Shown here: positions 16,621-44,704 of the stretch, in pieces | Layout: each line of letters begins with the position of its first letter | How positions within the stretch are numbered: the first letter of the stretch is position 1 | Source of the DNA: Chitinophagales bacterium | GTDB lineage: Bacteria > Bacteroidota > Bacteroidia > Chitinophagales > Chitinophagaceae | Length of the DNA stretch: 51,671 nucleotides | Direction of reading: 5' to 3' | NCBI GenBank assembly: GCA_030832085.1 | Contig: JAURJU010000109.1 | Coordinates: 1 to 51,671 of the forward strand | The notes under the pieces: generated by a model | Seen by the model: only the letters and a program-made list of their open reading frames with translations | Database searches by the model: none | What the model was told of the DNA's origin: nothing | Made by a program: the position numbers and the translations under genes

Positions 16621-16650
16621 TTCTCCAGTTTTAACCGGATTTTAACAGTT
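16621..16650 (+). promoter_or_regulatory. Shared 30-bp regulatory element, copy A (upstream of second susC)
   Basis: The site begins TTCTCCAGTTTTAACC and ends GATTTTAACAGTT. It holds TTTTAAC twice (16629-16635 and 16640-16646), an 11-bp direct repeat, about one helical turn. A second copy, 28/30 identical, lies at 44675-44704 on the - strand in the same orientation relative to its operon. The following 33 bp also align with the other copy (22/33), suggesting a common core promoter. It ends 67 bp before the susC ATG. AraC-family regulators typically bind direct repeats, so the AraC gene at 22.0 kb is the natural candidate; this is inference. Confidence 0.75.
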
Positions 16651-16717
16651 AAATAGGTTTTTTAAACAATGTATAATATATTGAATCTGATATGTTTCAA
16701 TTATTAAAACTAGCAGT

Positions 16718-19700
16718 ATGAGAAAATCAAAACTTCTTGCTTATGGCTTAATGGTTATATCCATTTTGCTGCTTTCTGTTTCTGTTTCGGCCCAAAAGAA
16801 AGTTACGGGAACCGTGCTGGATGCAACCTCTAATTCACCTTTGAGTGGTGCAACCATTTCATTGAAAAATGGGAGTGGAAGAAGCCTCTCTCGTCCTGAT
16901 GGTAAATTTGAGATTACTGCACCTGCTGGGAAAACGGTATTGACAGTTTCTTTTGTAGGCTATCAATCACAGGATATAGCCATTGCCGCAAATGAATCAA
17001 ACGTAAGCGTCTCCCTGAGCAGGACTGGAGACATGGGTGAGGTTGTCGTAATAGGATATGGAACCAAGAAGAAAGTAGATTTGACCGGAGCTATTTCCAC
17101 GGTTTCTGCAAAAGATATAGAATCACGCCCTGTAGCCAATGCACAGCAGGCGTTGCAAGGTTTGGTGCCCAATCTAAACATTACAGTATCAAATTCCGGC
17201 GGTGAGCCTGGTGGAGGAATGGACATGAGCATACGCGGGTTGAGTTCTTTTTCCGGAAGTACTGCACCCTTCGTTCTCGTGGATAATATTCCCATGGATA
17301 TCAACAGCATCAATCCTGCAGATATCGAATCAATAACCGTTTTAAAAGATGCAGCATCCTCTGCCATTTATGGTGCCCGTGCCGCTTATGGGGTTATCCT
17401 AATTACCACGAAAACGGGCAAGAGTGGTAAAGATCGGATGAATATTTCCTTGCAAACAAATGTTGCCCTCACCAATCCTGTTCAGTATCCTCGGTTGGTG
17501 GATGCAATGACATTTGCTAAAGTGGCAAACGATGCAGCAAAAAATATAGGTAATGCCCCATGGTACGATGCTGATGCATTGGATCGGTTGGCCAAAAACA
17601 TCGCCAACCCAGGCAGTGCGCCTGTTATGTATGGTGCACCCAACGGCCTGACGTGGAACATTGGTGCTATGGGACTGGGTGCTGCAGCCAACACTGACTG
17701 GTATGATATTCTTTTCAAGGATTTTTCTACAAGGCAAAAATATAACCTCAGCGTGTCAGGGGCTAGTGAAAAAATAGATTATTATTTGTCGGGTGGTTGG
17801 TATAAAGAGGATGGTTTGCTTCGGTATGGCAATGAAAGCTTCAACAGGTACAATTTCGATGGAAAAATAAATGCCCAGGCTACCTCTTGGGCAAAAGTGG
17901 GTGTATTGTTCAAGTATAATTCAGGCTTACAGGAGTTTCCCTGGCAACAGGAACTGGGCAGGGGAAGAATTTATGACATGATGACCAAGCTGAAGCCTAC
18001 CATGCCAGCAAAGTATCCCGGAACTGATATTTGGACACAAGAGAGTCGCATTGATGAGTGGAAGGCACAAAGAGATAATACGCTGAATACCCAAATGATA
18101 TTGGCTCCGAGGATAACCCTTGAACCTATTAAAGGCTGGGTCACCAATCTTGAATTCAATTATACAAACAACAACAACCGGAGGGAGCAATATTCCAAGC
18201 AATATTTTTGGATGCAACCCAATGGGGTGTTGGCCAATGGAGTGGCAAAACTCGCTACATCTTATAGGCCCAGACTTTATACTGACAGCTATTTATCCCC
18301 TAACTTTTACTCAACCTATGCCAAGAGTTTTGGCAAGCATAATTTTTCTGTGATGGCTGGATATCAGCAGGAAAAATTAAAATACTTCTCTATCAACGCA
18401 GATGCCCTTTATTTGCTTAGTGACAATGTTCCATCCGTCAGTACAGCCGTAGGAAATAAAACCGTTGCAGACGGTCAGGGACACTGGTCTACACAAAGCG
18501 GATTCGGAAGGTTGTTGTATGATTTTAACGATAAGTATTTGGTTGAAGCCAATTTCAGGGCTGATGGTTCTTCAAGATTTGAACCAGGAAAGCAGTGGGG
18601 CTATTTTCCTTCTGTTTCTGCGGGTTGGGTAGCATCAAAAGAGAAATTCTACCCCCTGAAAAAAGTGATTAATTATTTAAAGTTGAGGGGTTCTTTTGGA
18701 GAGTTGGGCAATCAGAATGTGTCTAACTACCTTTACATACCCACAATGGGTGTCGGCCAGAGCAGTTTTCTATTCAGTGGCCAACGTTTATGGACAGTAT
18801 CTTCTCCCAATATTTCAAGTGTAAACCTGTCATGGGAAAAAGTAAAAACTTTGGATATCGGAGCAGACATGGCCTTCTTTAGAAGGAGGTTATCTACCAC
18901 TTTTGATTGGTACCAATCCTTTACTACCAACCTGGTGGGACCTGGTCCCGCTGTTCCTGCTTTGCTTGGAACTTCAGTTCCAAGGGAAAACTCTGGCGAA
19001 ATCAGAACCCGTGGTTTTGATCTTGAAATCAAATGGAAAGATCACATAGGAGATTTCTATTATGAAATAGGTGGTAATTTGGCCAATAACAGGAGTGTGG
19101 TTATGTCATATAACAACCCAACCGGAATCCTTACCACGTATCGTCAGGGACAGGTACTTGGAGAGACATGGGGATACAAAACCGATGGCTTTTTCCAAAC
19201 AACAGATGAAGTAACCAATTGGGCGAATCAATCTTTCCTTTGGTCAGGAAAATGGAATCCAGGCGACCTGAAATACGTGGATCTTGACAAAAGTGGAGCC
19301 ATCAATGCCGGTAAAAACACAGTAGCTGATCATGGGGACATGGTCATTTTGGGAAATCAGTTGCCCCAATATCTCTATGGAATCAATGCTAGCGCTTCTT
19401 GGAAGGGGATAGAACTTGCAGTTTTCTTCCAGGGAGTGGGCAAACAAGATCTGTATATTACAGAAATCCTGAATGGAAATGTTTTCAGGGGGCCAGCCAA
19501 CGGACCTTTGCACATGATGGTGTATCAACAGCATTTGGATTATTGGAGAGATGCATCAAGCCCGCTTGGTGCGAATCCAAACGCATATTATGCGAAACCT
19601 TATTCTGTTTTTGACGGGGATAACAGTAAAAATTATGGAAGACCTGTTGACCGATATTTGCCCAGTGGTGCTTACTGCAGGCTTAAAAATCTGCGGATGG

Positions 19701-19894
19701 GGTATACGATTCCTTCCAAAATCACCAATAAGGCACAAATCAAAGGTGCTAATATTTATTTTTCTGGTGAAAACCTCTTCATTATCAACAAATTTAAATT
19801 GCTTGATCCTGAACAAACAGCAGGTAGTGCAGGAGATGGCAGGATTTATCCATTGTCGAAAAGCCTTTCTCTTGGGTTGAACATTAACTTCTAA
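16718..19894 (+). CDS. SusC/RagA-type TonB-dependent transporter (second pair, island)
   Basis: A 1058-residue outer-membrane importer: signal peptide (1-25, ending VSAQKK), regulatory-like domain (VTGTVLDATSNSPLSGATISLKNG, about 28-105), plug (EVVVIGYGTKKKVDLTGAIS, then MSIRGLSSFSGSTAPFVLVDNIPMD, about 108-220), and barrel ending GLNINF. DIESITVLKDAASSAIYGARAAYG is the SusC signature. It is only distantly similar to the first SusC. A SusD follows after 10 bp. The upstream 30-bp element is shared with the 44.5-kb enzyme operon, so this pair is probably the importer for the island's substrate. Confidence 0.95.
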   Translation: MRKSKLLAYGLMVISILLLSVSVSAQKKVTGTVLDATSNSPLSGATISLKNGSGRSLSRPDGKFEITAPAGKTVLTVSFVGYQSQDIAIAANESNVSVSLSRTGDMGEVVVIGYGTKKKVDLTGAISTVSAKDIESRPVANAQQALQGLVPNLNITVSNSGGEPGGGMDMSIRGLSSFSGSTAPFVLVDNIPMDINSINPADIESITVLKDAASSAIYGARAAYGVILITTKTGKSGKDRMNISLQTNVALTNPVQYPRLVDAMTFAKVANDAAKNIGNAPWYDADALDRLAKNIANPGSAPVMYGAPNGLTWNIGAMGLGAAANTDWYDILFKDFSTRQKYNLSVSGASEKIDYYLSGGWYKEDGLLRYGNESFNRYNFDGKINAQATSWAKVGVLFKYNSGLQEFPWQQELGRGRIYDMMTKLKPTMPAKYPGTDIWTQESRIDEWKAQRDNTLNTQMILAPRITLEPIKGWVTNLEFNYTNNNNRREQYSKQYFWMQPNGVLANGVAKLATSYRPRLYTDSYLSPNFYSTYAKSFGKHNFSVMAGYQQEKLKYFSINADALYLLSDNVPSVSTAVGNKTVADGQGHWSTQSGFGRLLYDFNDKYLVEANFRADGSSRFEPGKQWGYFPSVSAGWVASKEKFYPLKKVINYLKLRGSFGELGNQNVSNYLYIPTMGVGQSSFLFSGQRLWTVSSPNISSVNLSWEKVKTLDIGADMAFFRRRLSTTFDWYQSFTTNLVGPGPAVPALLGTSVPRENSGEIRTRGFDLEIKWKDHIGDFYYEIGGNLANNRSVVMSYNNPTGILTTYRQGQVLGETWGYKTDGFFQTTDEVTNWANQSFLWSGKWNPGDLKYVDLDKSGAINAGKNTVADHGDMVILGNQLPQYLYGINASASWKGIELAVFFQGVGKQDLYITEILNGNVFRGPANGPLHMMVYQQHLDYWRDASSPLGANPNAYYAKPYSVFDGDNSKNYGRPVDRYLPSGAYCRLKNLRMGYTIPSKITNKAQIKGANIYFSGENLFIINKFKLLDPEQTAGSAGDGRIYPLSKSLSLGLNINF

Positions 19895-19904
19895 AAAAAC
19901 AGAG

Positions 19905-21638
19905 ATGAAAAAAATATTATTACTGACAGTATTGTTCCTTGGAATTGGAATGGTATTTACTTCGTGCAAAAAGAATTTTTTAGATTTAAATCCCCGGGAC
20001 CAGATATCAGATCCTGAATTCTGGAAATCAGACCAGGACATGGAACTGTACATGAATGGTTTGTATTCAGTACTGCCCGGTTGGTTAACAAGCGGATCTG
20101 GTGGAAATCCTTTGTTGGATGCAGGAACCGATATGGCTATTTCGGTAGGTCTTTGGCTGTCTACAAAAAATCGTCTTGATGGAGCGATTACCGTTCCTTC
20201 GAGTGGCGGAGGATGGAGTTGGACAGCTGTGCGTAACGTCAATTATTTTCTGAAGAACAGTGATAGGGTCCCCAATGTTGGCCTAAAAGATCACTATATC
20301 GGAGAGGCATACTTTTTCAGAGCATTCAATTATTTCAACCTGCTTAAACAATTTGGTGATTTGCCTATCGTTAAGGTGCCGCTTTCGCCCACTGACAAGG
20401 AAGTTTTGATGGGACCTCGCAGCTCAAGAACAGATGTTGCAAACTTCATCCTCAGCGACCTTGATATGGCTATTTCTAAACTCAAGGGGAAGGCCGAAGT
20501 TCCTGCGCAAAGGATAAGCCGAGACATTGCCTCATTGTTCAAATCAAGGGTGGCACTCTATGAAGGAACATGGGAAAAATACCATCAGAATGATGCATTC
20601 AAAGGAAAAACAAATGGAGACGCCTTTTTGACTGCAGCTGCACAAGCGGCTAAAGCTGTCATTGACGGAGGAGTTTACAGGTTGTCTACGGGTAACACAA
20701 GTCAGGTGTATTATGAACTTTTTAATCAGGTGAATTTAAGCTCAAATCCTGAAATACTGCTCTGGAGGAGTTACAGTTCAGCACAAGGAGATGCGTTTAC
20801 CAATCAATTGTGGAACTGGCCTCATGGCTCAGGATTCACCCAGGAAATGGTGGGCACGTACCTATGTTCAGATGGTTTACCCATCGGTCTTAGTCCTCTT
20901 TATCAAGGAGAGAAAGACATCCGTGATGTGGTAAAAAACCGTGATCAGCGCTTTGTGCAAACGGTAATGAACCCAGGTGATCCGGTTACCATCAGCCTAA
21001 AAAACGATACAACAAAATACACGCTCCCTTTATTAGGTGGTGCACAGACCGGCCCGACCGGCTATGAATCACAGAAGTTCCGCCGTCCACAGCTTGATCC
21101 TGCTACAGGTGGAAACAGCGGGGAACTGTCATTTATTATTTTTCGTTTTGCGGAGGCCTTGTTGAACTATGCTGAAGCCAAGGCCGAATTGGGACAGTTG
21201 ACCCAGGCGGACGTTGATTTGTCTATCAATAAATTAAGGGCAAGGGTTGGTATGCCCAATATGGTACTGACTTCAATCAGAACCGATCCCAAATGGCCTG
21301 ATTATGGGTATACCCTACCAAATTATTTGCATGAAGTCAGGAGAGAACGTGCAGTAGAGCTCATGACAGAAGGTTTCCGTTTGGATGACCTGATGCGATG
21401 GAGGGCGGATAAATTATTTGTTGGCAAAAGACCAAAGGGGGCATTTTATAGTAACGAGCTGAAAGCTGCCTATGCAAATTTGAAGGTTGATGCCGGTAAT
21501 TTCCTTGATCCATATGTAACAACGCTTACAGGAGCAAACGGAGGATGGGGATTCAACCCAGCCAAGCACTATCTATTGCCTATACCAACAAATGAGCTGA
21601 CATTGAATCCTGCCTTGACACAAAACCCAGGCTATTAA
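19905..21638 (+). CDS. RagB/SusD family nutrient-binding lipoprotein (second pair)
   Basis: A 577-residue surface lipoprotein with lipobox Cys C21 (MVFTSC). Family features include FLDLNPRDQISDPEFWKS, GEAYFFRAFNYFNLLKQFGDLPIV (about 129-152), the late FRFAEALLNYAEAKAELG, VRRERAVELMTEGFRLDDLMRW and the C-terminal HYLLPIPTNEL. This is the classical RagB/SusD layout. Paired with the SusC 10 bp upstream and closed by a terminator hairpin 40 bp after the stop. Confidence 0.95.
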   Translation: MKKILLLTVLFLGIGMVFTSCKKNFLDLNPRDQISDPEFWKSDQDMELYMNGLYSVLPGWLTSGSGGNPLLDAGTDMAISVGLWLSTKNRLDGAITVPSSGGGWSWTAVRNVNYFLKNSDRVPNVGLKDHYIGEAYFFRAFNYFNLLKQFGDLPIVKVPLSPTDKEVLMGPRSSRTDVANFILSDLDMAISKLKGKAEVPAQRISRDIASLFKSRVALYEGTWEKYHQNDAFKGKTNGDAFLTAAAQAAKAVIDGGVYRLSTGNTSQVYYELFNQVNLSSNPEILLWRSYSSAQGDAFTNQLWNWPHGSGFTQEMVGTYLCSDGLPIGLSPLYQGEKDIRDVVKNRDQRFVQTVMNPGDPVTISLKNDTTKYTLPLLGGAQTGPTGYESQKFRRPQLDPATGGNSGELSFIIFRFAEALLNYAEAKAELGQLTQADVDLSINKLRARVGMPNMVLTSIRTDPKWPDYGYTLPNYLHEVRRERAVELMTEGFRLDDLMRWRADKLFVGKRPKGAFYSNELKAAYANLKVDAGNFLDPYVTTLTGANGGWGFNPAKHYLLPIPTNELTLNPALTQNPGY

Positions 21639-21677
21639 ACCGGGGAAATTTTATTGATTAAGGGTAGGGGCACTTTC

Positions 21678-21727
21678 ATACATCACCGTCTGATGAAAAA
21701 ATCATTTGGATGGTGATGTATTTTTTT
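21678..21727 (+). terminator. Rho-independent terminator after the second susCD pair
   Basis: Outer stem ATACATCACC (21678-21687) and GGTGATGTAT (21712-21721), with an inner TGAT/ATCA pairing, followed by a run of seven T residues. Confidence 0.88.
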
Positions 21728-22006: not shown

Positions 22007-22882
22007 GTGAAAGTCATTAATTTCACGATACCCGAAAAAATTGGGAGCTCCATACATGTAAAAGAAGATAAGCAGCCCTATTTTTATCCTCATTTGCATC
22101 GACATGTTGAAACTCAAATCACTTTGGTTCTTGGTGGAGAGGGCACTCTTGTTATAGGGAACAACATGCAACCTTTCAAATCCGGAGATTTGTTTGTAAT
22201 CGGAGCCAATCAGCCTCATTTGTTCAAAAGTGATCCCTGTTACTTTAAACCTGACAGTAGAAAAAAAATCCACTCGCTGAGCATATTTTTCAATCCAGAA
22301 GGATTGATTTCCCGAGTTCTTGGGTTACCTGAGATGAACAGTATTAATAAGTTCATTAAATCCAGTAACCATGGTATCCGTGCAGCAGAAAAAGATACAT
22401 CCAAACTGCTTGAATATATTCTCAAAGTAAAAAATAATTCAGATGGGCTCATGCTGGCTTATTTTATTGAAATGCTTCATGCAATGGCCAATTTGATTCA
22501 ATGGGAATATTTTTCAACAGAATCTTTTGAATATATCTTTTCCGATACAGATGGATTGAAAATGAATGATATCATCCAGTATACCATGGATAATTACAAA
22601 AAAGAGATTTCTTTGGACCAGATTGCAGCCGTAGCACATTTAACGCCCCAGTCTTTTTGCCGTTATTTTAAAAAATACACCTCTAAAACCTATACCCATT
22701 TTGTAAATGAATTGCGAATCAATGAGGCTTGCAAAATGCTGATGGAAAAAAAATCGGTTTCTATTGGCAATGTTGCCCATCACTGTGGCTTCAACAGTGT
22801 GGTTTCTTTTAACCGTGTATTTAAAAGCATTGTATCCAAACCACCTCGCGATTTTATAAGGACACACGAAAAAAAAAATTGA
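22007..22882 (+). CDS. AraC-family transcriptional regulator
   Basis: A 291-residue regulator with an N-terminal cupin-like sensing domain (about 20-110; HLHRHVETQITLVLGGEGTLVIGN, then FKSGDLFVIGANQPH) and a C-terminal double helix-turn-helix (about 195-288; ISLDQIAAVAHLTPQSFCRYFKKYT and VSIGNVAHHCGFNSVVSFNRVFK). The start is GTG: the frame has a TAA at 21986 and no ATG before residue 56. The cupin domain in such regulators usually binds a sugar-type or other small ligand. It lies between the island's susCD pair and the serine dehydratase/sulfatase operon. It probably controls the island, possibly through the repeated 30-bp element. Confidence 0.92.
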   Translation: MKVINFTIPEKIGSSIHVKEDKQPYFYPHLHRHVETQITLVLGGEGTLVIGNNMQPFKSGDLFVIGANQPHLFKSDPCYFKPDSRKKIHSLSIFFNPEGLISRVLGLPEMNSINKFIKSSNHGIRAAEKDTSKLLEYILKVKNNSDGLMLAYFIEMLHAMANLIQWEYFSTESFEYIFSDTDGLKMNDIIQYTMDNYKKEISLDQIAAVAHLTPQSFCRYFKKYTSKTYTHFVNELRINEACKMLMEKKSVSIGNVAHHCGFNSVVSFNRVFKSIVSKPPRDFIRTHEKKN

Positions 22883-22977: not shown

Positions 22978-22996
22978 GAATCATGATCAATGATTC
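22978..22996. promoter_or_regulatory. 7-bp-arm inverted repeat just before the serine dehydratase gene
   Basis: GAATCAT (22978-22984) and ATGATTC (22990-22996) flank GATCA. It ends 23 bp before the preferred ATG at 23020 and overlaps the alternative ATG at 22990, which argues for the later start. A leader hairpin or operator role is possible. Confidence 0.4.
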
Positions 22997-23019
22997 ATCA
23001 CATTAAAAAGAACAATGCA

Positions 23020-24606
23020 ATGGCAAGTTTCCCCAGTATTTTTAATGACGTGATTGGACCTGTGATGAGGGGTCCTTCGAGTTCTCATTGTGCAGCCTCT
23101 TTGAGAATTGGCCGGCTTTGCAGGGATTTAATGGGAGATTCCCTGGGTCATGTCTTGATAGAATTTGACCCCAATGGGTCCCTCGCAACCACCCACAAGA
23201 GTCAGGGGTCAGACATGGGATTATTTGGTGGATTTTTGGGGTGGGAAGCGTATGACGAACGCTTGCCCCAATCAGAGAAATACCTTGAAGTTGAAGGAAT
23301 AAAGGTTGAAATTGAAATTCAGGATATAGGTGCTGATCATCCCAATACCTATAAGCTCACCATGAGCAACAAAGACGAATGCCATAGAATGACTGCCATT
23401 TCAACTGGGGGGGGGATGATTGAGGTAATTGAGATTGACAACTGTAAAGTGGCCATAGCTGGTGATTATTATGAAACACTTATTTACTGCGAATCAGCGG
23501 ATCATCTCATACCTTATCTTAAAAATACGGTTGCTTGTGATGAAATCATATGGCATGAAACCAGTGATGATGGGCTTTGCTTTCTTGAAATAAAGGCACA
23601 GCAATTCCTGGATGAAAATATTGTACAGGAAATAACGGCAATGCCTGAAGTAATGTACATCAAGAAACTATCTCCTGTGCTTCCGGTTTTATCCAGGAAC
23701 AATCTGCAGGTACCTTTTATTTCAAGCGAGGAAATGATTGTTTATAACGCTGAAAAAAACTTAGAGTTATGGGAATTGGCTGTTGACTACGAGTCGGCAA
23801 GGGGAAACATTTCACAGGGTGAGGTTTTTGAAAAAATGAGATCTATTGTGCGCATTATGCGGAATGCCATTCAGACAGGGTTAGAAGGAACGAGCTATCC
23901 GGACAGAATTCTGGGCAGTCAGTCTGTTCAGTTAAAACAGCAGCTGAACAACAAGCGGCTGATGGGTGGTGATGTGAATAACACGATCATCATGTATGTT
24001 TCTGCCATAATGGAAGTAAAGAGTTCCATGGGAGTTATTGTGGCTGCACCGACTGCAGGTTCATGCGGAGCTTTGCCTGGGGCAGTGATTGGAATGGCGT
24101 CTTCATTGGATTTACCCGAGGACGAAATGGTTAAAGCCATGCTTGCTGCTGGCTTGATTGGCGTATTTGTTGCCGCGCACGCCACATTTGCTGCAGAAGT
24201 GGGGGGTTGTATGGCTGAATGTGGTTCTGGTTCAGGAATGGCTGCAGCAGCACTGGTTGGTATGGCCAATGGTACATTGGCGCAATCCCTTGCTGCGGCA
24301 TCTTTGGCCCTGCAGAACGTATTGGGATTGATCTGTGATCCCATTGGGAACAGGGTAGAGGCTCCTTGTCTAGGTAGAAATGTAATGGCAGCAACCAATG
24401 CAGTATCCTGTGCCAACATGGCCTTGTCTGATTATAACCATCTCATTCCATTGGATGAGGTAATCGAAACCATGCAAAAAGTTGGCAACGAAATTCATCA
24501 TACGCTTCGTTGTACAAATCTTGGTGGCCTTTCCATAACCAAAGCAGCAAAAGATATTGAGCAACAATTAGAAAATCAAGACCAATCCTTTTTCAAAATT
24601 TGTTAG
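23020..24606 (+). CDS. sdaA: L-serine ammonia-lyase (Fe-S serine dehydratase, single chain)
   Basis: Converts L-serine to pyruvate and ammonia in the cytoplasm using a 4Fe-4S cluster. The 528-residue chain fuses the beta domain (1 to about 150; GPVMRGPSSSHCAASLRIG) with the alpha domain (about 250-528; AAPTAGSCGALPGAV with C349, then GGCMAECGSGSGMAAAALVG with C397/C401, and CDPIGNRVEAPC with C439/C450, the cluster-bearing region). An in-frame ATG at 22990 would add ten residues. It is the first gene of a + strand operon: the Xaa-Pro aminopeptidase follows after 6 bp, then two sulfatases. Amino-acid catabolism in a sulfatase operon is unusual and suggests serine is a product of the degraded substrate. 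Confidence 0.92.
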   Translation: MASFPSIFNDVIGPVMRGPSSSHCAASLRIGRLCRDLMGDSLGHVLIEFDPNGSLATTHKSQGSDMGLFGGFLGWEAYDERLPQSEKYLEVEGIKVEIEIQDIGADHPNTYKLTMSNKDECHRMTAISTGGGMIEVIEIDNCKVAIAGDYYETLIYCESADHLIPYLKNTVACDEIIWHETSDDGLCFLEIKAQQFLDENIVQEITAMPEVMYIKKLSPVLPVLSRNNLQVPFISSEEMIVYNAEKNLELWELAVDYESARGNISQGEVFEKMRSIVRIMRNAIQTGLEGTSYPDRILGSQSVQLKQQLNNKRLMGGDVNNTIIMYVSAIMEVKSSMGVIVAAPTAGSCGALPGAVIGMASSLDLPEDEMVKAMLAAGLIGVFVAAHATFAAEVGGCMAECGSGSGMAAAALVGMANGTLAQSLAAASLALQNVLGLICDPIGNRVEAPCLGRNVMAATNAVSCANMALSDYNHLIPLDEVIETMQKVGNEIHHTLRCTNLGGLSITKAAKDIEQQLENQDQSFFKIC

Positions 24607-24612
24607 CCTAAC

Positions 24613-26001: not shown

Positions 26002-26011
26002 AACCTCCTTT

Positions 26012-27499: not shown

Positions 27500-27598
27500 G
27501 CCAATGTTTTCTATGTATTTTCTCTTACTTAGTTGGGCGCAGAAAAATGTTTCATTGAAGAAAATAATGCTACACCAAACTTGAATTCAACCATCAAA

Positions 27599-29011: not shown

Positions 29012-29024
29012 ATAACAATGCGTT

Positions 29025-31868: not shown

Positions 31869-31905
31869 GGTTTGATGTCTGTTTATGCGTAATGTTAGAA
31901 ACTAA

Positions 31906-32769: not shown

Positions 32770-32794
32770 ATTTTATTTCTTGATGGGCTGTTGA

Positions 32795-36066: not shown

Positions 36067-36109
36067 AATTAAGGTTTTATTTGGCTTTTGTTTATCTGGT
36101 CAATTGGTC

Positions 36110-37606
36110 TCATTTATTTTGATCAATTGATTTTATAGATTTTGATGCATGTTCTTTTTCGCCGTTTGTTCTAAATGTTCTTGAATCTACAGAAAACAAT
36201 CGAGGATATCTTCCCTTGATTATTTGCTGTTCTTCTGTCTTCAACTCCTCTATTCCAACGGGTTTGTCTTGTGGTCGGATTCCTTTTTGGTTCAGACGGT
36301 TAAACAAGCTCCAATTTCGGATAGTTTTACCAGGTGCAGGATCACTGGGTTCCTGTGCCTTAAGATCATATCTTGTAAAATCAATCAATTTTTCCGGGGC
36401 ATTGGTTTGCCAGTTTCTTAAGGTTGCCATCCTGAAATCTTTGTTCATGAACCATTTGATTTCCAATTCAGCTTCTGATCCGCAAATGCCGGATCCACGC
36501 TGAACAAATTGATAGTTGATGCTGTCATTGTTTTTGTAATGCGTTCGCCAAAGCATTCCATATTCCCCCTGGGTAATGAATTTTGCGTCTGGCCACCTGC
36601 GTCGCGTCTCCTTCAGCCAAATTTCCAGTCCATCCAATCCATTTCTTCCGTTATAGCCATATATCTTATACGCATCAACAAGGCTCATTTCCCAAATGCA
36701 GGTTACCCATGCAAACTTATTGAGTGCGAACCCGGTGTCAAAATGAGCGGCGGTAGTAGACAACATCTCTTTTGTTCCGATTTCGGTTCCCTGTCGGAGA
36801 ATCGTTTCAATCGGACCCACACCCTGTCTGCTGCCGCACCGGATGCCATTGATAAACCTGGGTGCTGAATACCTGGCATTCAGGAAATCAACAGTCCAGC
36901 CATCAAGATTTACACAATCAATCATGTCTTCTTTTCCCTGGGCTGGCTTGCAAAAATGTTCACGTGATGGGTAATAGGGATATGAAATTGATCCCTCTCC
37001 ATCACCATTGTCTACAGCATACTGACTCCATATATTCCCCTGGCACACATGAATACCTTCTTTTTCTGACAGGTACTGTAAATTTTCGGCAGCAAGAAAC
37101 CCTGCAATGATGCTCTTTGGACGGTATCCTCCACCTACCATTGCTGAAACCATCTGCAACCCTTCATGCAGGTCGCGGTTAATCTGTTCGCGGGTATTGT
37201 ACATGTTGGAAAAATACCCACCTGGTAAAAAAGTAATCTCATCCCCAAATTTTTCGTGATAGGAGACAACCAGTTTTTTCAAGTCCACATAATTCGGGCG
37301 CTGGTCTTTTAGGGCAAGCCAACTGAAAGACCATGTAATCCGCGCACCTGGCCAAGCGTTTTCTATGGTTTCCCTGAATTTTCTGGCTCCTTCTGGCGTA
37401 TGAATACTTGATTCGTCTGTGCCATGAAATGCATCGCGTGAAGTTTCAATCTGGTTCACCCTCACTACTGTGCTGAACGTAAAAAAACGGTTTCCCAACA
37501 ATGTAAGTCCTTCCTGAGCAGAAATATTTAAGTGCAGCAATGCAAACTGCATCAAAAGCAAAACAGCAATCCGGGTATTGAATCTTTTTATTTTTATCAT
37601 TTCCAT
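36110..37606 (-). CDS. Secreted DUF3863/DUF3864-like protein, putative TIM-barrel glycan enzyme
   Basis: A 498-residue secreted protein (signal peptide about 10-31, ending ISAQ). The sequence resembles the DUF3863-DUF3864 proteins of Bacteroidota, a family I assign from memory and with moderate confidence. The visible body has alternating strand and helix patches (FFTFSTVVRVNQIE, RITWSFSWLAL, EITFLPGGYFSNMYN, PKSIIAGFLAAENLQYL, ICQGNIWSQYAVDNGDG) that fit a TIM-barrel hydrolase or deacetylase-like fold. Aromatic and acidic residues are frequent late in the chain (WFMNKDF, ITQGEYGMLWR). No catalytic residue can be named. It lies between the M28 and M1 peptidase genes in the operon. Confidence 0.65.
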   Translation of the reverse strand: MEMIKIKRFNTRIAVLLLMQFALLHLNISAQEGLTLLGNRFFTFSTVVRVNQIETSRDAFHGTDESSIHTPEGARKFRETIENAWPGARITWSFSWLALKDQRPNYVDLKKLVVSYHEKFGDEITFLPGGYFSNMYNTREQINRDLHEGLQMVSAMVGGGYRPKSIIAGFLAAENLQYLSEKEGIHVCQGNIWSQYAVDNGDGEGSISYPYYPSREHFCKPAQGKEDMIDCVNLDGWTVDFLNARYSAPRFINGIRCGSRQGVGPIETILRQGTEIGTKEMLSTTAAHFDTGFALNKFAWVTCIWEMSLVDAYKIYGYNGRNGLDGLEIWLKETRRRWPDAKFITQGEYGMLWRTHYKNNDSINYQFVQRGSGICGSEAELEIKWFMNKDFRMATLRNWQTNAPEKLIDFTRYDLKAQEPSDPAPGKTIRNWSLFNRLNQKGIRPQDKPVGIEELKTEEQQIIKGRYPRLFSVDSRTFRTNGEKEHASKSIKSIDQNK

Positions 37607-37640
37607 ATTTTATGGGGTTGCTTCCAGAAATTTCATGCCA

Positions 37641-39215
37641 CTAACGCTTAAAGCCTGTGACAGGATCAACGGAGAGAGCCTTGGGTAATTCTTTTCTTGG
37701 AATTTTCTGATCCCGCATTGCTGTATTGTACACAAATGCTGCCACAATCGTAGCTGACTGTTTGAGATCATCAGGCATAAGATGATCGTAGCTGTCCATA
37801 TTGCTGTGCTGGGTAACCAATCGATCCTGAATAAACTGGAATCCGGGTAATCCAATTGTGTTAAAAGAGATATGGTCAGTACTTCCCGTATTTTGAATAG
37901 TAACGGTTTTGGCCCTGAGATCATTGAAGGGTGCAAACCATTGTTGAAAGATATTTCGGGCCGCTTCATTTCCCTGGAGATGTATTCCCAGCACTTTCCC
38001 CGTACCATAATCTAAATTGTAGTATGCAGAAAGTTTATCATGTGCTGGCAATAGTTTCATGGTTTCTGCATCGCCAAATGTTTTCTTCACATAACCTCTT
38101 GATCCCAATAAGCCTTGTTCTTCTCCGCTCCATAGCGCTATGCGTATTGTTCTTCTTGGTTGTACTCCTATTGCTTTTAGTATCCTGATGGCTTCCATCA
38201 TTACACAGACGCCCGCTGCATTATCAGTAGCGCCAGTAGCTGCAGGCCATGAGTCAAGGTGAGCGCCGAGCATCACTACCTCCTCTTTCAAGTCTTTATC
38301 GATACCGGGTATTTCAGCGATTACATTGTATCCTTGCGTGTCATTCGTTTGGAATGTTGTTTTTACATCCACATCCATTTTTACACGAATTTTGTTTCTG
38401 AGCAGTCGGATGATCGTATTGTAATCTTCCAGGCCAATCGCGATGTCCAGAAAATTATCCGGATCTGTTATTTTATAGGGACCTCCTTGTAAAACAAAAA
38501 CTGTTCCGCTATGGTTATCGGGAGATGAACTCAGTATGGCTATGGCACCTTCTTTAACAGCCATCCTTTTGAGTGCATTGAGTACACCTCTTGGTACAAC
38601 ATTTTGTGTTTTATTCCTTTCAGCTCTCCTTCGTAATGCAGCAGTGTCCTCACTTTCAGCTACTTCACCTAATTTTTTCAGGTCTTCATCACTGCGCCGA
38701 AGAATTGCCGGCCTATTGCTGTGGTCATATATCATCAGGTCATCAAAAATCAATATGTTGCCTTTGAGCTTGTTGCGATAGGCCTCTAGTTCAACAGAAT
38801 CCTTTGCTGAGATAAGGATCACTTCTCCTTTTTGCAGACCATTGGTGCCTGAGGTCCAGGTTTTGGGATATGCAATGAGCGACCTGTACCAGGGAGATGA
38901 CATCGCCACATACGATTTTTCCAATTCCCAGCCTTTCCCAAATTCACCCCAGGGATCCAACCTGGCATTTACCAATCCCCATTGGGTGAATTGGTTCCTC
39001 GCATAATTGGCAGCACGCATAAATCCCGGGGAATTGGTAACCCTTGGTCCACTTGCATCAGTGATCTGGAATGCAATATCCATGACTTTTGAATTCACCA
39101 ACCCTTCTTTTCTGATTTTTGCCATTACTGCCTGGTCAATATTTTCTACCTGTCCAAGTGCTACGATAGGAAATGCAAAAAAAAGGGCCAAAGAAAAACG
39201 CTTGATCAATTTCAC
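37641..39215 (-). CDS. M28 family metallopeptidase (carboxypeptidase Q-like)
   Basis: A 524-residue secreted zinc peptidase with a signal peptide (about 5-22). A PA-like insert domain lies at about 120-275. The catalytic domain has metal ligands H319 and D321 (GAHLDSW), bridging D331 (ATDNAAG), catalytic E365 and ligand E366 (WSGEEQGLLGS). These match the plasma glutamate carboxypeptidase (PGCP/CPQ) branch of M28, which cleaves dipeptides or short peptides. Encoded 45 bp after the GH63-like gene and 34 bp before the DUF3863-like gene. Confidence 0.92.
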   Translation of the reverse strand: MKLIKRFSLALFFAFPIVALGQVENIDQAVMAKIRKEGLVNSKVMDIAFQITDASGPRVTNSPGFMRAANYARNQFTQWGLVNARLDPWGEFGKGWELEKSYVAMSSPWYRSLIAYPKTWTSGTNGLQKGEVILISAKDSVELEAYRNKLKGNILIFDDLMIYDHSNRPAILRRSDEDLKKLGEVAESEDTAALRRRAERNKTQNVVPRGVLNALKRMAVKEGAIAILSSSPDNHSGTVFVLQGGPYKITDPDNFLDIAIGLEDYNTIIRLLRNKIRVKMDVDVKTTFQTNDTQGYNVIAEIPGIDKDLKEEVVMLGAHLDSWPAATGATDNAAGVCVMMEAIRILKAIGVQPRRTIRIALWSGEEQGLLGSRGYVKKTFGDAETMKLLPAHDKLSAYYNLDYGTGKVLGIHLQGNEAARNIFQQWFAPFNDLRAKTVTIQNTGSTDHISFNTIGLPGFQFIQDRLVTQHSNMDSYDHLMPDDLKQSATIVAAFVYNTAMRDQKIPRKELPKALSVDPVTGFKR

Positions 39216-39260
39216 GGGAATAATTTATTTAATGATTGTAATGATGGGTATTGATTGATG

Positions 39261-41186
39261 TTATTTTTTTGTGTTATTCATCGGTGCTTGTGGAGAAGGC
39301 ACATATCCCTTTTCCATGATATCCATGAAACCCAACAGTGCACCCCAATGATAAAATGCATCACTCCAAGTATTGGCTTCACCACCATGTCCGGTTTCGG
39401 CATGATAATTTTCACATACATGTCGCTCACTTAACCATGTCTTTAGTAGCAAGGCTTTTGATTTTTCCGCCATATCTTTTTTCGCAGCCGGCAAATGATA
39501 GTTTCGCATGCCCAGGTAAACCAGAAAATTCAACGGTGCCCAGATCCTGCCTCTCCAGTAATGATTGTCCTTGAATGCCTTGTCATTGCGTGCAACCGAA
39601 GGCAGTATGTATTCCCCCCAGAATTCATTGGGGTTATAAAAATGTTCCTTCATCATCCTTGAGGCTTGTTCCATGCTGGGTACTTTTGTCAGCAATGGAT
39701 AAAACAATGTAGGTGTTAAACGGTAACTGGGTTTTCCTGTTACCAGGTCTTTGTTCAGGTATAGTCCAAACTGATCATCCCAAAGGGTCTCCAGTTTTTT
39801 GGAATAAATTTTTGCTCTTTCGGTTAATTCTTTTGCATCATTTGCATAGCCCAAAATTGTAGCTATTTCAGATAGGCTCTGGCAATCGGCAATATAAAGG
39901 CTCATCAAGCCTACATCGGCCATCAACATTCGATGGTTTACGCTGTCAAAACCTGCATCATCCCACATGGGAGAATTGTCCATTCCGGATTCCCATTTGG
40001 CTGCCTTCATTTTTCCGGATTCAGTGGCTGAACGAGATTTGGTATTGCCATAATCATATGGATCTGTGCCATGCACCAGGTAACCGTCTATATCCCTGTT
40101 GGCCGCCCGCCAACGGTTCCAGCTGAGCAACTCATTGTATACTTCTTGTAGAAACCATTTCTCTTTGTATTTTCTGTAAATCTCTCTCACCACAATGGAT
40201 CCAACCTGAGGCTCAGTCCGGTCCTCACTTTTGTGCCCATACTGCGAGTTATTGGGAACAAATCCTCTGTCCGTAATCTCCTTGGTAATAGCGATTGCAT
40301 TGGCATAAGCCAGCTCCTTGTTGTCAAGTGATAACATGTATGCTGCGAAATAAGTATCCCAACCGAACAATACCCAGTCGTTTGAAAATGTACGGCTTAC
40401 CGGATTGATGATTCTGCTGTTGTTGGGATCATAAATGGTAGTCCATGCAAGCACTGTTTGCATGGCATCATATGCTTCGCGTGATTTACCAAACGTCAAT
40501 CGCTCTGTTTCGAATTTTTGTTTTGCAATTTTGATGGTTTTTTCAACAAGTTCCTTAGACCTTGATGTGCCTGTTGAAATTGCGATAGATTCATCCAAAG
40601 GGATGTGAAAGGCATTGGAAGAAATTATTTTTTTGTTTCCATTGACATATACGTTGATATTATTTGTCGGCGTCTGTCCGACAATCATCTGTTGATCAAT
40701 CTTTATTTCACCTTTTCTGTTCCATAATATTTGCGGTTTAATAAGCAATGAATCGCCCGTTGATGCTTTCATTGGAATTACCAGTATATACAACTCATTG
40801 TCCACAGATGCACTTTGCACCCGTAACCGGATATTGTGCCATTCTACTTCAAGTTCCGTGTAAGCACCATCATATGCATGTGCTCCGGGAATGACTTGCT
40901 CTTTGCTGTCATAATGATCCCGGCCAATCAAGGTTTCCTCAAGGGTTTTGCCTTGCTGGTCTTTTATGGCTAGGTTGATGGAAAAGCATTCAGGCAACAA
41001 AACGTGAGACAGTACACTGCGGGTATTCCATGTATTCCAACCATGGATAAGCCTGTTGCTCATGTCTATTGCTTCTTTTCCACTGGGCTTCTTTGCAGTC
41101 AATTGATTTTGTGCGACAATGCAGTTACAGAAAATGAACAAATCTGTTATCAGAAAGATGAAAAGTATAAATATATTTTTGTTCAT
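39261..41186 (-). CDS. GH63/MGH1-like clan GH-G glycosidase
   Basis: A 641-residue secreted enzyme with an (alpha/alpha)6 barrel. Signal peptide about 3-27. N-terminal beta region to about 215. Catalytic-domain motifs include VLFGWDTYFAAYMLSLDN (Asp in GWD is the likely general acid), NRDIDGYLVHGTDPYDYG, SGMDNSPMWDDAGFD, YWRGRIWAPLNFLVYLGM and ENYHAETGHGGEANTWSDAFYHWGALL (Glu candidates for the base). This layout fits GH63 or mannosylglycerate-hydrolase-like enzymes, which release alpha-linked glucose or related sugars. The ATG at 41186 avoids overlap with the sulfatase that precedes it. Confidence 0.85.
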   Translation of the reverse strand: MNKNIFILFIFLITDLFIFCNCIVAQNQLTAKKPSGKEAIDMSNRLIHGWNTWNTRSVLSHVLLPECFSINLAIKDQQGKTLEETLIGRDHYDSKEQVIPGAHAYDGAYTELEVEWHNIRLRVQSASVDNELYILVIPMKASTGDSLLIKPQILWNRKGEIKIDQQMIVGQTPTNNINVYVNGNKKIISSNAFHIPLDESIAISTGTSRSKELVEKTIKIAKQKFETERLTFGKSREAYDAMQTVLAWTTIYDPNNSRIINPVSRTFSNDWVLFGWDTYFAAYMLSLDNKELAYANAIAITKEITDRGFVPNNSQYGHKSEDRTEPQVGSIVVREIYRKYKEKWFLQEVYNELLSWNRWRAANRDIDGYLVHGTDPYDYGNTKSRSATESGKMKAAKWESGMDNSPMWDDAGFDSVNHRMLMADVGLMSLYIADCQSLSEIATILGYANDAKELTERAKIYSKKLETLWDDQFGLYLNKDLVTGKPSYRLTPTLFYPLLTKVPSMEQASRMMKEHFYNPNEFWGEYILPSVARNDKAFKDNHYWRGRIWAPLNFLVYLGMRNYHLPAAKKDMAEKSKALLLKTWLSERHVCENYHAETGHGGEANTWSDAFYHWGALLGFMDIMEKGYVPSPQAPMNNTKK

Positions 41187-41208
41187 CTGTGTTTTTAAAA
41201 ATGTTGAT

Positions 41209-42669
41209 TCAATATTGTGGTTGCACGAGTTGGTATGGTGCATCATAAAATCCTAAATGACGGACACGCCATTCCACTGGTTCATGAAAGACAGGATGAG
41301 GAAGGTACATCTCCCATGTTCCCAGTTTTTTTAACATCGATTTAGTTTTTTCGGGGTATAAAAGTGAAAGATCATGTTGTTCAGCAATATCCTCCGAAAG
41401 ATGATAGAGCATTGGTAAGCGGTCTGGCAATCTGATCAATTTCCAGTCTCCATCCCGAATAGCAGCACCTGCGGTGTAGCGCCATTCCATGGTTTGATGG
41501 GGAATCTTTTTTTCCTGGTCATTCAGGTAGGGTAAAATATCAACACCTGTGTAATGATCTTTTTCTGAAACCAGTCCGCCCGCAGCTTTAATGAAAGTAG
41601 GACAAATATCAAGTGCAGAAACAGGAGCAATGAATTTTTTCCCGCCACTCACCCTTGCTGGCCATTTTAAAAAAAATGGCACCCTGATTCCACCCTCCAA
41701 TAAAGTGGTTTTTTGACCCCGGAGCGGTGCATTGATGGAGCCATTGGAAATAGAATTTGCAGGTCCGCCGTTATCACTTATGAAAACCACCAGGGTATTT
41801 CGCTCCAGGCTTTGTTCCTGAAGCACTTTCATTATTTTACCAATGTTTTGATCCAACCTGTAGACCATTGCACAATAGGTTTGTCGAAGCTTCTCTTTCA
41901 CATGACTGAATAGTTTCATGTCCTCATCTGTTGCCTGCATGGGTGCGTGGGGCGCGTTAAAAGCAGCGCATAGAAAGAATGGTTGATTTTTGTGCCGCTT
42001 GATGAAATCCACGCTTTCATTTCCAATATCATCTGTCATATAGGTAAGCATGTCGGACTTTTTGTAATTGCATTGGATGGCAGATTCCATGCCTGTTCCA
42101 TTTTGTTTTGCAGTAACATAATCATGTCCCCCATCCAAAAATCCCCAAAATTCATCAAAACCCCTTTTGATTGGATTAAAATGCGGCGCTGCGCCAAGAT
42201 GCCACTTGCCAATCAGTCCTGTGACATAACCAAGGGACTTGAGTTTATTGGCGAGGGTAGATTCGGTTAATGGAAGTCCCAGGTAATTTGAATCAAATCC
42301 GGGTTGATTGCCAGCAAGGTTATCGTTGAACCCAAAACCAGCCTGGTGCTTTCCAGTAAGAAGGCCTGCACGCGAAGGAGCACATACTGAAGAAGATGCA
42401 TATCCGTTTGTAAAAATCACTCCTTCCCTGGCAAGCTGATCAATGTTCGGTGTTGGAATTTGAATGCTGCCATGGATCCCAAGATCACCATATCCCAGGT
42501 CGTCTGCCACAATCAACAAAAGGTTTGGCAATACCGTATTTTGGGAAGCAGATAAATTCCTGTTTTCTGTTTTCTGCGTTTGACCATATACATTGACAAA
42601 TAAAAAGACGAGTAGGACAACCGCTGAACAAAGGGAGGGCTTGTATTGTAGGGCTGTTGACCATTTCAT
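41209..42669 (-). CDS. Secreted arylsulfatase-type sulfatase, canonical CAPSR
   Basis: A 486-residue sulfatase. Signal sequence about 13-30 (ending NVYGQ). Metal ligands D56 and D57 (IVADDLGYGD), formylglycine precursor C95 in C-A-P-S-R, then GKWHLGAAP and the late FISDNGGPANS (D/N metal ligands) and LRGQKTTLLEGGIRVP. This is the canonical S1 layout of steroid/arylsulfatase-like enzymes. Starts at 42669 and 42696 are both possible; the longer frame runs into the preceding gene. Located between GH123-like and GH63-like genes in the - strand operon. Requires Cys-to-formylglycine maturation by an enzyme outside the window. Confidence 0.93.
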   Translation of the reverse strand: MKWSTALQYKPSLCSAVVLLVFLFVNVYGQTQKTENRNLSASQNTVLPNLLLIVADDLGYGDLGIHGSIQIPTPNIDQLAREGVIFTNGYASSSVCAPSRAGLLTGKHQAGFGFNDNLAGNQPGFDSNYLGLPLTESTLANKLKSLGYVTGLIGKWHLGAAPHFNPIKRGFDEFWGFLDGGHDYVTAKQNGTGMESAIQCNYKKSDMLTYMTDDIGNESVDFIKRHKNQPFFLCAAFNAPHAPMQATDEDMKLFSHVKEKLRQTYCAMVYRLDQNIGKIMKVLQEQSLERNTLVVFISDNGGPANSISNGSINAPLRGQKTTLLEGGIRVPFFLKWPARVSGGKKFIAPVSALDICPTFIKAAGGLVSEKDHYTGVDILPYLNDQEKKIPHQTMEWRYTAGAAIRDGDWKLIRLPDRLPMLYHLSEDIAEQHDLSLLYPEKTKSMLKKLGTWEMYLPHPVFHEPVEWRVRHLGFYDAPYQLVQPQY

Positions 42670-42730
42670 TGGTTTATGCTGTATTCCAGATATCATTTCC
42701 ACTGCATTGTATATTGTTATCTTTGTTGTT

Positions 42731-44557
42731 CTACTTTGTATCCATAACAGTTCTGGCAATCTCAGCCAATAAATTTTTTCCTTCATTGATAACATCTACA
42801 GCAGATCGCCTGTCCAGTGTTTTGGTGTTAATGGTGTTCATGAAATTATTCAATTCTCCTATCGCAGCAGCGGCTTTCCTTGATGGATTTTCTGCCAGTT
42901 CTTTTCGCAATATTCTTATTTTTTCATAGTCCTGAATGCCTTCCCTGAGTCTTTCAAACCGCACTGAACTTTGGGCGTTTGGATAAACAAAATAAGTATC
43001 TCCACTGGGCCATCGGATGAACCGGGAATCCAGCAAAGGGTTTTCTGGCCAGCTGTTGTAGGCCCAACGCAGGAATCCATCAAATCCCATGGCTGAAGCA
43101 AACCAGCCCTCATAGCAGGATTCAGCAGGAGGGGAGAACGTAAAATTATTGGGCTTTGGTATTCCGCAGGCCACATAATAGGTTGTTTTTAAGCCAGAGC
43201 GTTTTCTGGCACGCAAAACATCTCCTGCAAGGGTATCAATATGTCTCCAGTTGGAACTGAAATCATAAATGGCCGGATTGATTTTCCCATAATAGAAGCC
43301 AGCCATGGAAATTTTCAGTTCAGGTGCTGCCTTCTTCAAAAAACCGAACATTTTTTCCATTTCTTCCTCTTCCCGTTCATCAAGTGCAATGGCTGCTTTG
43401 TTCAACCAGCCCTTGGCTTTGAGGTGGGCTTTGAAATCACGCAAGAAGTTTTCCCAAATGTCCTCATATGCTTTTGTTCCTGGTACTGATTCAATGGTGA
43501 TGGTTTTGGAAGACTTTTCGTCATACCACGAAAATTTATTGCCAACAGGAACCATTGAATAGCAATTGATTTGATCTTTTATCCCTGATTCCATGGCGAG
43601 GTTGACATAGAGATCAAATACCGAATAGTCGTAGGTCCAGGTTCCATCCGCCTTTTTGATCCACTTGATCATGGAGCCATATGGATCATAGGTCTGACCA
43701 GCCCAAGGATCATCAATCAGCGTTGTGGTGATGCATTTCTGACCTGCCTGGGCAAGCATGGTTAAAAGCGGTTTCAACAGATTGATGTGTTCGCGTGACC
43801 ATAAGTTTACCCTGTTGAATCTTGCAACAGCATATGGATTCTGCCAAAGATCGAGATGGAAGGACCATGCTGAAGGCGCCGGGAGAGACTTGTTCATTAC
43901 TTCCAATGTTATTGGATGGTTTACCGTGCCAGACGTCGATTCAACTGAAATGGTTCCCTTGTAAACCCCGGGGGCCGCCTGTGGAGGTATTTCAACAGCA
44001 ATCCATACAGGTTTTGTTTCTTGGCCATTGATGCCAAACTTGTTGGCTTTTTTGAGTAGGTCAGGACTCGTATTTGTAGGAGACTTTTTCAAATCCCTGG
44101 CACCGCATCCGCCAGTAAATTCATTGCTCAAAACATAATTGACGATGGATATGGAGGTGATTCCCTTATCGAGTTGATGATTACTGTTGCGAAACGGACT
44201 TGCCCTCACAATCACCTCATCTTTGTTTTCAGCAGACCAAACAAGCAAGAGGCAATTGACCCTTTCTCCTTTCCAGCCATGAAGATTGACGGAAGCAGAA
44301 ATTTTTCCCGACGGAGGAAGACTTTTTTCGTAGGCAATATCAGTGGACCCAAACCCAGTGTGAACGCCAGGTTTGAGGGTCTTCCAGGGCGAGATCTCAT
44401 CTGCAGAAGGGTTGACAGGATTAGGTTGATGATTCCAATCCTTGATCAAATTAAAAGAGATGCCAGAGGCTGATAAGAAAATCAGAATGCCTGAAGTGAT
44501 TTTTTTCAATAAAGCGACTTTCCTCTTTTTCATCAATGCTTTTATGTGCCGATACAT
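42731..44557 (-). CDS. GH123-like glycosidase (DUF4091-type)
   Basis: A 608-residue secreted protein. Order: signal/anchor (about 15-36), beta-sandwich (about 65-225; EIPPQAAPGVYKGTISVES), then a TIM barrel beginning WSFHLDLWQNPYAVAR. The adjacent acidic pair D393-E394 (IALDEREEEE) matches the Asp-Glu used in substrate-assisted hydrolysis by GH123 beta-N-acetylgalactosaminidases. The late GFDGFLRWAYNSWPENPL and RFERLREGIQDYE are typical of the family. Met1 (44557) or Met9 (44533) may be the start. It is the first gene of the nine-gene run, about 117 bp downstream of the - strand copy of the shared 30-bp element. A hexosaminidase activity is the best guess, not proven. Confidence 0.85.
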   Translation of the reverse strand: MYRHIKALMKKRKVALLKKITSGILIFLSASGISFNLIKDWNHQPNPVNPSADEISPWKTLKPGVHTGFGSTDIAYEKSLPPSGKISASVNLHGWKGERVNCLLLVWSAENKDEVIVRASPFRNSNHQLDKGITSISIVNYVLSNEFTGGCGARDLKKSPTNTSPDLLKKANKFGINGQETKPVWIAVEIPPQAAPGVYKGTISVESTSGTVNHPITLEVMNKSLPAPSAWSFHLDLWQNPYAVARFNRVNLWSREHINLLKPLLTMLAQAGQKCITTTLIDDPWAGQTYDPYGSMIKWIKKADGTWTYDYSVFDLYVNLAMESGIKDQINCYSMVPVGNKFSWYDEKSSKTITIESVPGTKAYEDIWENFLRDFKAHLKAKGWLNKAAIALDEREEEEMEKMFGFLKKAAPELKISMAGFYYGKINPAIYDFSSNWRHIDTLAGDVLRARKRSGLKTTYYVACGIPKPNNFTFSPPAESCYEGWFASAMGFDGFLRWAYNSWPENPLLDSRFIRWPSGDTYFVYPNAQSSVRFERLREGIQDYEKIRILRKELAENPSRKAAAAIGELNNFMNTINTKTLDRRSAVDVINEGKNLLAEIARTVMDTK

Positions 44558-44674
44558 TTACAATCTAAGGCTGTGGTATATCCGAGACAACTGGTGCCCG
44601 CCTCCAGAGCGATGAAGCAGATTAAACACTGCTGCTCACTTGAATTTATCATATGTTCCTTATAAATCCTACTG

Positions 44675-44704
44675 AACTGATAAAATCGGGTTAAAACTGG
44701 AGAA
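44675..44704 (-). promoter_or_regulatory. Shared 30-bp regulatory element, copy B (enzyme operon)
   Basis: On the - strand the site begins TTCTCCAGTTTTAACC and ends GATTTTATCAGTT. It differs from copy A (16621-16650) at two of 30 positions. The next 33 bp toward the GH123-like gene match the corresponding stretch before susC at 22 positions, without gaps. Both copies point toward their operons. It lies in the 205-bp divergent intergenic region and is also 58 bp upstream of the + strand esterase gene, so it could serve both directions. Confidence 0.75.

Follow-up and report, generated by a model that had tools for sequence, protein, structure and literature searches.

The island and its two copies of the element

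The stretch of DNA analyzed here (51,671 nt of contig JAURJU010000109.1 from a Chitinophagales bacterium; "the window", to whose full length coordinates refer unless a contig or locus label is given) carries a susC/susD transporter pair together with carbohydrate-active enzymes and sulfatases, the combination that defines a polysaccharide utilization locus. The genes are arranged in two blocks that converge, with 13 nt between them, and a short sequence element is present in two copies, A and B, that face inward from the outer ends of these 28 kb. Copy A lies in the susCD promoter and copy B in the promoter of a predicted nine-gene operon encoding GH123, a sulfatase, an MGH1-like glycoside hydrolase, M28, DUF3863, two M1 peptidases, TauE, and GH78. 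We consider it likely that both copies act as the operator of a single, dedicated AraC-type regulon with two promoters, with the cupin-AraC protein encoded in the island as its most likely reader. The features that this reading depends on are the following.

16609..16650, + strand: copy A (GTAAACA part plus 30-bp core) in the susCD promoter; 28/30 identities with copy B, kept in six relatives
16718..19894 and 19905..21638, + strand: susC and susD, proposed to be under copy A control (Pfam Plug, TonB barrel, and SusD_RagB)
22007..22882, + strand: AraC-family regulator with cupin and HTH_18 domains, 291 aa, proposed reader (Pfam; orthologues follow susD)
29025..44557, - strand: predicted nine-gene enzyme operon, proposed to be under copy B control (Pfam; gaps of -65 to 45 nt)
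44675..44716, - strand: copy B in the enzyme-operon promoter, within the divergent SASA/GH123 spacer (match to copy A; relatives)

Aligning copy A at 16621-16650 (+) with copy B at 44675-44704 (-) gives 28 of 30 identical bases, and 50 of 63 when the next 33 bp are added without gaps; our recount thus returns the figures of the sequence-only reading that first pointed to the pair. That reading also had both copies facing their operons, 67 bp and about 117 bp from the start codons, and the distances are right: the susC ATG (16718) is 67 bp past copy A and the GH123 ATG (44557) is 117 bp past copy B. The similarity reaches upstream as well, with GTAAACA at -11 to -5 in both copies. Searching from exact 10-base seeds on both strands turned up no further 30-mer pair with at least 27 identities in the window, shifted registers of this one aside. 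When the window was resampled 615 times under a first-order Markov model, the best pairs had 23-28 identities and 3 of the 615 reached 28, so that, judged from the window alone, such a match is only moderately unlikely to arise by chance. What these statistics leave modest is settled by the conservation of the element in relatives, which establishes it as real.

When up to 3 mismatches are allowed, a 25-bp core pattern finds only copies A and B within the own genome (G000; 2,888,332 bases in 111 contigs, 98.4% complete). At the same tolerance, the 30-bp pattern was run on 394 genomes of the family, a sample of a larger set, and matched in one of them, the own genome. A 19-bp core with 1 mismatch allowed is unspecific, matching also in genus-mates and in reversed-pattern controls.

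Conservation in relatives

A scan of the window SusC against a collection of 84,980 species returned 13 loci, eight of which are 72-86% identical (L005-L010, L015, and L016; Chitinophagaceae, Chitinophaga, or uncultured bacteria); the others are four Arenibacter loci at 50-51% and one Neolewinella locus at 33%. The element stands before susC in six of the eight close loci (24-28 of 28 scored positions), is weak in L008 (21 positions), and is absent before the susC of L010 (genome G399). When the 30-bp pattern was run over the whole genomes of the eight close relatives, an extra copy away from susC appeared in five, located in four of them in the divergent SASA/GH123 spacer; in the fifth, G396, the next gene is GH78-like instead. 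A single contig of G394 carries both copies, 21.8 kb from each other, with the convergent layout and the gene order kept; the island there is without the first sulfatase, the operon sulfatase, and GH78.

A profile of 78 columns built from 13 aligned copies (7 A and 6 B) was then run on 18 genomes (the own genome, the eight with a SusC orthologue, and nine genus-mates), with the best 150 first-look candidates scored per genome. Exactly two strong sites (64.0-80.6 bits) were found in each of 7 of the 18 genomes, the own genome included (copy A 70.9 and copy B 79.6 bits, both in the training set), one before susC and the other before the GH123 or GH78 enzyme operon. Thirteen of these 14 strong sites are training rows; the exception is the second copy in G400, which lies in the SASA/GH123 spacer and was picked up by the profile only (68.5 bits). 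The next best site is below 17 bits in all seven strong-pair genomes, and every non-strong match across the 18 genomes is below 24 bits. Among the best 150 of 2047 first-look candidates in the own genome there is no third member of the regulon, the next best site scoring 12.8 bits (E 0.31). None of the nine genus-mates has a SusC match at E 1e-100 or better or a strong site, and none of the five Arenibacter (four) and Neolewinella (one) genomes has a site above 18.0 bits. The matrix scan of the full genome that the sequence-only reading had proposed places strong sites, among the candidates scored, at the two promoters only, and they are not spread over unrelated ones. An eighth genome, G397, has two weak sites, neither of them in the training set: 23.8 bits before a GH78-M28 gene pair, in the spacer beside orf46526, and 19.1 bits before susC. 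This pair is probably real, since the sites are at matching promoters.

The gene behind copy B varies. A GH78-like gene replaces GH123 as the first gene after copy B in two genomes (L031 9546-10636 and L065 1555-4569), and the alternation of GH123 and GH78 is an exchange of enzymes behind a fixed, putative operator.

In the genus-mate G250, where neither susC nor AraC has a detected orthologue, a weak profile match of 18.9 bits (L107, G250:C15, 6741-6817, - strand) lies directly before genes for KduI, a PfkB kinase, and KDPG aldolase. The match is possibly the site of a related regulator at a uronate operon, or a chance match.

For selection, the core (-12 to +29) was compared between the window and seven susC orthologues that have some form of the element, two of these susC genes being partial. 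At fourfold-degenerate sites, the susC of the window and those of the seven share 31-41% identity, a saturated level. Against six of the seven, the core is 83-95% identical, as compared with 36-41% for susC fourfold sites and 21-40% for the upstream flank; the G397 core is 67% identical to that of the window. When the six close relatives are compared with one another, identity is 80-100% over the inner 20 bp and 15-48% over the upstream flank. The shared regulon put forward in the sequence-only reading is thus strongly supported: seven genomes have retained the pair and an eighth has a weak form of it, and in comparisons with the window genome the core is far better conserved than synonymous sites.

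A recent duplication or recombination that copied the promoter without regulatory meaning could account for 50 of 63 identities in one window, and the best A-B match of the window's copy A is indeed its own copy B (63 of 80 columns). The second unit of the element, however, reads TTTTAAC in the seven strong A rows and TTTTATC in the six aligned B rows, so that the pair predates the split of the lineages; strong A and B copies keep their own letters, and the pair is therefore old and not the product of recent copying. The core has also been kept where susC synonymous sites are saturated relative to the window. Recent copying is thus already contradicted by the comparative data, and we regard it as almost certainly wrong.

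Anatomy of the putative operator

According to the sequence-only reading, TTTTAAC recurs with an 11-bp period within the site. Copy A keeps this period exactly and copy B has TTTTATC as its second unit; the period itself is borne out over 16 copies, whose mean self-similarity peaks at shifts 10-11 and 20-21 (0.44-0.46, as against 0.17-0.31 at other shifts). The copy B row of G397 is one base out of register, which affects the pooled consensus there and leaves the per-copy shift analysis untouched. By eye, the distance from TAAACA (TAATCA in two rows) to an ACC-like center is constant in the 16 rows. We interpret each copy as a pair of direct half-sites placed above a promoter box.

16611..16626, + strand: putative copy A half-site 1, TAAACAGATTTTCTCC, forming a 21-bp direct repeat with half-site 2
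16632..16647, + strand: putative copy A half-site 2, TAACCGGATTTTAACA, repeat of half-site 1
16677..16684, + strand: -7-like box of susC, TATATTGA, with a predicted start near 16689
44699..44714, - strand: putative copy B half-site 1, TAAACAATTCTTCTCC, weak on its own
44678..44693, - strand: putative copy B half-site 2, TAACCCGATTTTATCA, repeat of copy B half-site 1
44641..44648, - strand: -7-like box of the GH123 operon, TAAATTCA, with a predicted start near 44636

The two half-sites of copy A are identical at 11 of 16 positions (shuffle P 0.0014 at shift 21 and 0.022 over shifts 16-26), and those of copy A in G394 at 10 of 16 (P 0.006 and 0.078, respectively); when shifts 16-26 are scored in a second way, P is 0.009 for copy A and 0.057 for the G394 copy A. 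A palindromic operator was also considered and rejected, no palindrome above chance being present in any of four copies tested (P 0.55-0.99).

All 13 aligned strong copies have a box of the form TAnATTnA, always at offset +56. In Flavobacterium, the excerpted account in PMC9723704 places the corresponding box at -12 to -5 relative to the start, and TAnATTnA fits the TAnnTTTG published there only partly. With the box at -12 to -5, the half-sites would span about -78 to -63 and -57 to -42. A sigma-70-style scan of 16400-16900 found 3 candidates versus 1.5 (standard deviation 1.4) in shuffles and was not used.

The phasing of the T-tracts, which recur at 10-11 and 20-21 bp, is also that expected of bent DNA, and the block might accordingly be intrinsically curved DNA or an UP-like element that serves no dedicated regulator. 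Across the 13 aligned rows, however, positions other than T (CC at +14/+15; C at -6, +2, and +4) are as well conserved as the tracts, and the sequence occurs nowhere else in the genome, whether at 3 mismatches or at a strong profile score, a uniqueness that generic curvature would not require; we consider this explanation very improbable. A conserved block near a promoter could likewise be a transcribed RNA element (a leader or riboswitch) or the promoter of a special sigma factor, the more so as a susC relative in G399 sits beside an extracytoplasmic function (ECF) sigma factor/FecR pair. The core is located upstream of the -7-like box and hence outside a transcript starting from it, and the window has no Rfam match at the gathering threshold; the block, moreover, extends over more than 40 bp above the -33 region, and no strong site accompanies the susC of G399 with its neighboring ECF pair. 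Both variants are, in our estimate, highly improbable.

The candidate regulator

Of the 69 open reading frames (ORFs) of at least 100 aa in the window, 37 were covered by the Pfam scan, the remaining 32 mostly overlapping scanned ones, and the cupin-AraC gene at 22007-22882 is the single transcription-factor gene among those 37. Its product has a C-terminal HTH_18 domain (PF12833, 5.8e-18), which assigns it to the AraC/XylS family, and an N-terminal cupin (Cupin_2 1.1e-7, AraC_binding 1.2e-6), all above cut-off; the ten solved sequences that it matches include MarA, AraC, and other AraC-type domains. Orthologues 76-80% identical occur in G394, G395, G396, G398, and G401, each adjoining susD and each in a genome with both sites, so that the gene adjoins susD in 6 of 6 pair-bearing genomes whose contigs show the junction. 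Nine genus-mates and five distant genomes, all 14 lacking a strong site, have no AraC match better than 37% identity. The AraC-suited layout claimed in the sequence-only reading has therefore held up in part: the 21-bp half-sites above a -7-like box, three AraC-type domains, and the co-occurrence of the island AraC speak for it, and the weakness of the repeat in copy B against it.

An alternative accepts the shared operator as real and assigns it to a regulator encoded elsewhere, with the island AraC controlling something else. At E 1e-5 or better, HTH_18 is found in three genes of the own genome (297-, 301-, and 323-aa frames), two of them AraC-type genes other than that of the island, a count that covers AraC-type regulators and no other families; moreover, G394 encodes a 407-aa HTH_18 protein about 5 kb upstream of susC, and G400 and G397 have the site and no detected AraC orthologue. 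As against this, the island AraC stands beside susD wherever a pair-bearing genome shows the junction, the AraC gene at C22:304851 is paired divergently with another susC and has its own conserved spacer, and G000 has no HTH_18 frame near 407 aa. We therefore regard another reader as unlikely, albeit the most serious of the alternatives, and retain the island cupin-AraC as the preferred candidate.

Several observations weigh against the preferred reading as a whole. The repeat is weak in copy B, whose half-sites agree at 9 of 16 positions (P 0.043 at shift 21 and 0.36 over shifts 16-26); the second scoring gives P 0.34 for copy B and 0.35 for copy B of G396, and both B copies peak at shift 20. 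Among the six close relatives, the core (76-90% identical) shows no excess over susC fourfold sites (72-86%), and the selection argument therefore rests on comparisons with the window genome. The missing AraC orthologues of G400 and G397 count here too, though the susC contigs of these genomes end within susC or susD. There is no copy of the element before the AraC gene, which follows a terminator-like hairpin. The weak susC site of G397 scores about as high (19.1 bits) as stray matches (18.9 in G250, 18.2 in G341) and has the copy-B letters (TTTTATC), and the profile search as such rests on the best 150 candidates per genome.

The relative in G399 is of a different kind. Its SusC (72% identical; L010 1443-6783) has an STN domain and is encoded after an ECF sigma and FecR pair, an AraC relative 42-43% identical lies about 14 kb away on the contig, and the best site reaches 15.9 bits, not a strong one. 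This is the same transporter lineage with another regulatory system. ECF sigma/FecR control finds no counterpart in the window: its SusC has no STN domain, and there is no sigma or FecR match among the 37 scanned ORFs.

Further AraC-type genes were seen along the way. The second AraC gene of the own genome (C22:304851), 30-32% identical to the island AraC and divergent from another susC, is kept in 5 of 5 genomes examined; its spacer (L100 5577-5776, and L101-L104) has a mean column identity of 94% and, by eye, an ATTCG repeat 32 bp apart, that is, about three helical turns. The 407-aa HTH_18 gene of G394 is found at L106 1891-3114, and G395, G396, and G401 also have HTH_18 frames (408-427 aa), a size not seen in the own genome.

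Proposed mechanism and comparison with known systems

In the mechanism that we propose, one dedicated transcription factor would control two promoters, that of susCD (uptake) and that of the GH123 operon (breakdown). Each operator would span about -78 to -42, above a shared -7-like box, and be made up of two direct half-sites (TAAnC-N5-TTTT type) spaced by 21 bp. The island cupin-AraC would bind as a dimer with two helix-turn-helix (HTH) motifs per subunit, and would activate both promoters once a breakdown product of the substrate is bound by its cupin domain. In this scheme, it is from sequence that we predict AraC to bind, its effect to be activating and not repressing, transcription to start where stated, and the inducer to be a breakdown product.

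The E. coli araI1 and araI2 half-sites are about two helical turns apart. The island protein has the cupin and two-HTH build of E. coli AraC, whose two half-sites at araI1/araI2 lie beside the promoter (PMC6018408, in excerpt), as the putative ones would here, but its NCBIfam AraC equivalog score of 58.8 is far below the cut-off of 208. Closer in layout are the regulons of hybrid two-component system (HTCS) proteins in Bacteroides thetaiotaomicron, whose operators were predicted, as here, by phylogenetic footprinting (Ravcheev 2013, PMC3878776). In the excerpted text of that study, HTCS_Man has two 16-bp sites with a 5-bp spacer, HTCS_Rgu-1 has 12+9, and HTCS_Rgu-2 has 14+6, all amounting to a period of 20-21 bp; those regulators and the present candidate have an AraC-type DNA-binding domain in common, and the direct repeats of this period before susC and enzyme operons resemble the putative half-sites here, which are clear in copy A and weak in copy B. 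Unlike an HTCS, which is a hybrid two-component protein, the candidate here is a free cupin-AraC of 291 aa, and no AraC-type hybrid two-component protein was found in the own genome at its 98.4% completeness.

Free AraC regulators of such loci, and hence this kind of system, are already known. CgrA of Zobellia galactanivorans is an AraC-family regulator of the carrageenan regulon for which, according to the excerpt of PMC5698469, deletion slowed growth on carrageenans and RNA sequencing showed induction. The island resembles it in having an AraC-family regulator in a sulfatase-rich locus, the co-induced susCD pair being outside the locus in that case (PMC5698469), and differs in that expression and a deletion phenotype are described there, whereas the operator here is a prediction.

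What the window adds is a two-member regulon defined by its sequence for an uncharacterized, sulfatase-rich Bacteroidota island, with a candidate regulator and exact predicted half-sites. A thin search of the literature met neither this island nor this operator in published work. To our knowledge, it is mostly in hybrid or SusR-like systems of gut Bacteroides that operators of such loci have been footprinted; in the present case the candidate reader is a free AraC protein. In the relatives, moreover, the enzyme gene behind copy B appears to have been exchanged while the putative operator stayed in place, and a susC of this lineage is found next to regulatory genes of another kind. We tentatively suggest, as a possibility somewhat short of an even chance, that a free cupin-AraC acting on just two operators is the sole switch of a sulfatase/rhamnosidase/peptidase island in Chitinophagaceae and, at the same time, that the same transporter lineage was rewired to an ECF sigma/anti-sigma system in G399, or the reverse. 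If true, G399 would represent a natural replacement of the regulator on one susC lineage.

Other genes of the island

The remaining features lie between the two operons and beyond copy B.

21678..21721, + strand: terminator-like hairpin after susD (fold z -4.2; -7.4 and -5.1 in two relatives)
22990..29011, + strand: SDH-like gene, M24 peptidase gene, and two sulfatase genes after AraC (gaps, counted from AraC, of 107, 6, -110, and 33)
44763..48274, + strand: divergent SASA esterase gene (SASA 1.5e-14) and orf46526, with synteny kept beside copy B

The hairpin lies in the 368-nt gap between susD and AraC. A simple consensus scan of 21600-22100 found no terminator there, though folding gives a strong hairpin in 3 of 3 sequences, and the structure likely reduces read-through into the regulator and the later genes.

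The SASA ORF starts 58 bp from copy B on the opposite strand, and SASA and orf46526 may also be served by copy B. In relatives these two genes are syntenic beyond copy B, joined in G395 by DUF6797 and a sulfatase. The sequence-only reading had taken the element to mark the limits of the locus; because SASA and orf46526 keep their synteny beyond copy B, this part does not stand, and the element is no locus limit.

Both blocks serve the uptake and breakdown of complex, probably sulfated, sugar-containing material, and the mixture of GH123, GH78, sulfatase, SASA, and peptidase genes points to no single glycan. A serine-dehydratase-like protein, the TauE exporter, and two M1 peptidases are encoded among the sulfatases (22990-24606 and 31906-36066), with M24 and M28 nearby, and this set of genes hints at a sulfated glycoprotein or peptide-linked substrate over a plain polysaccharide.

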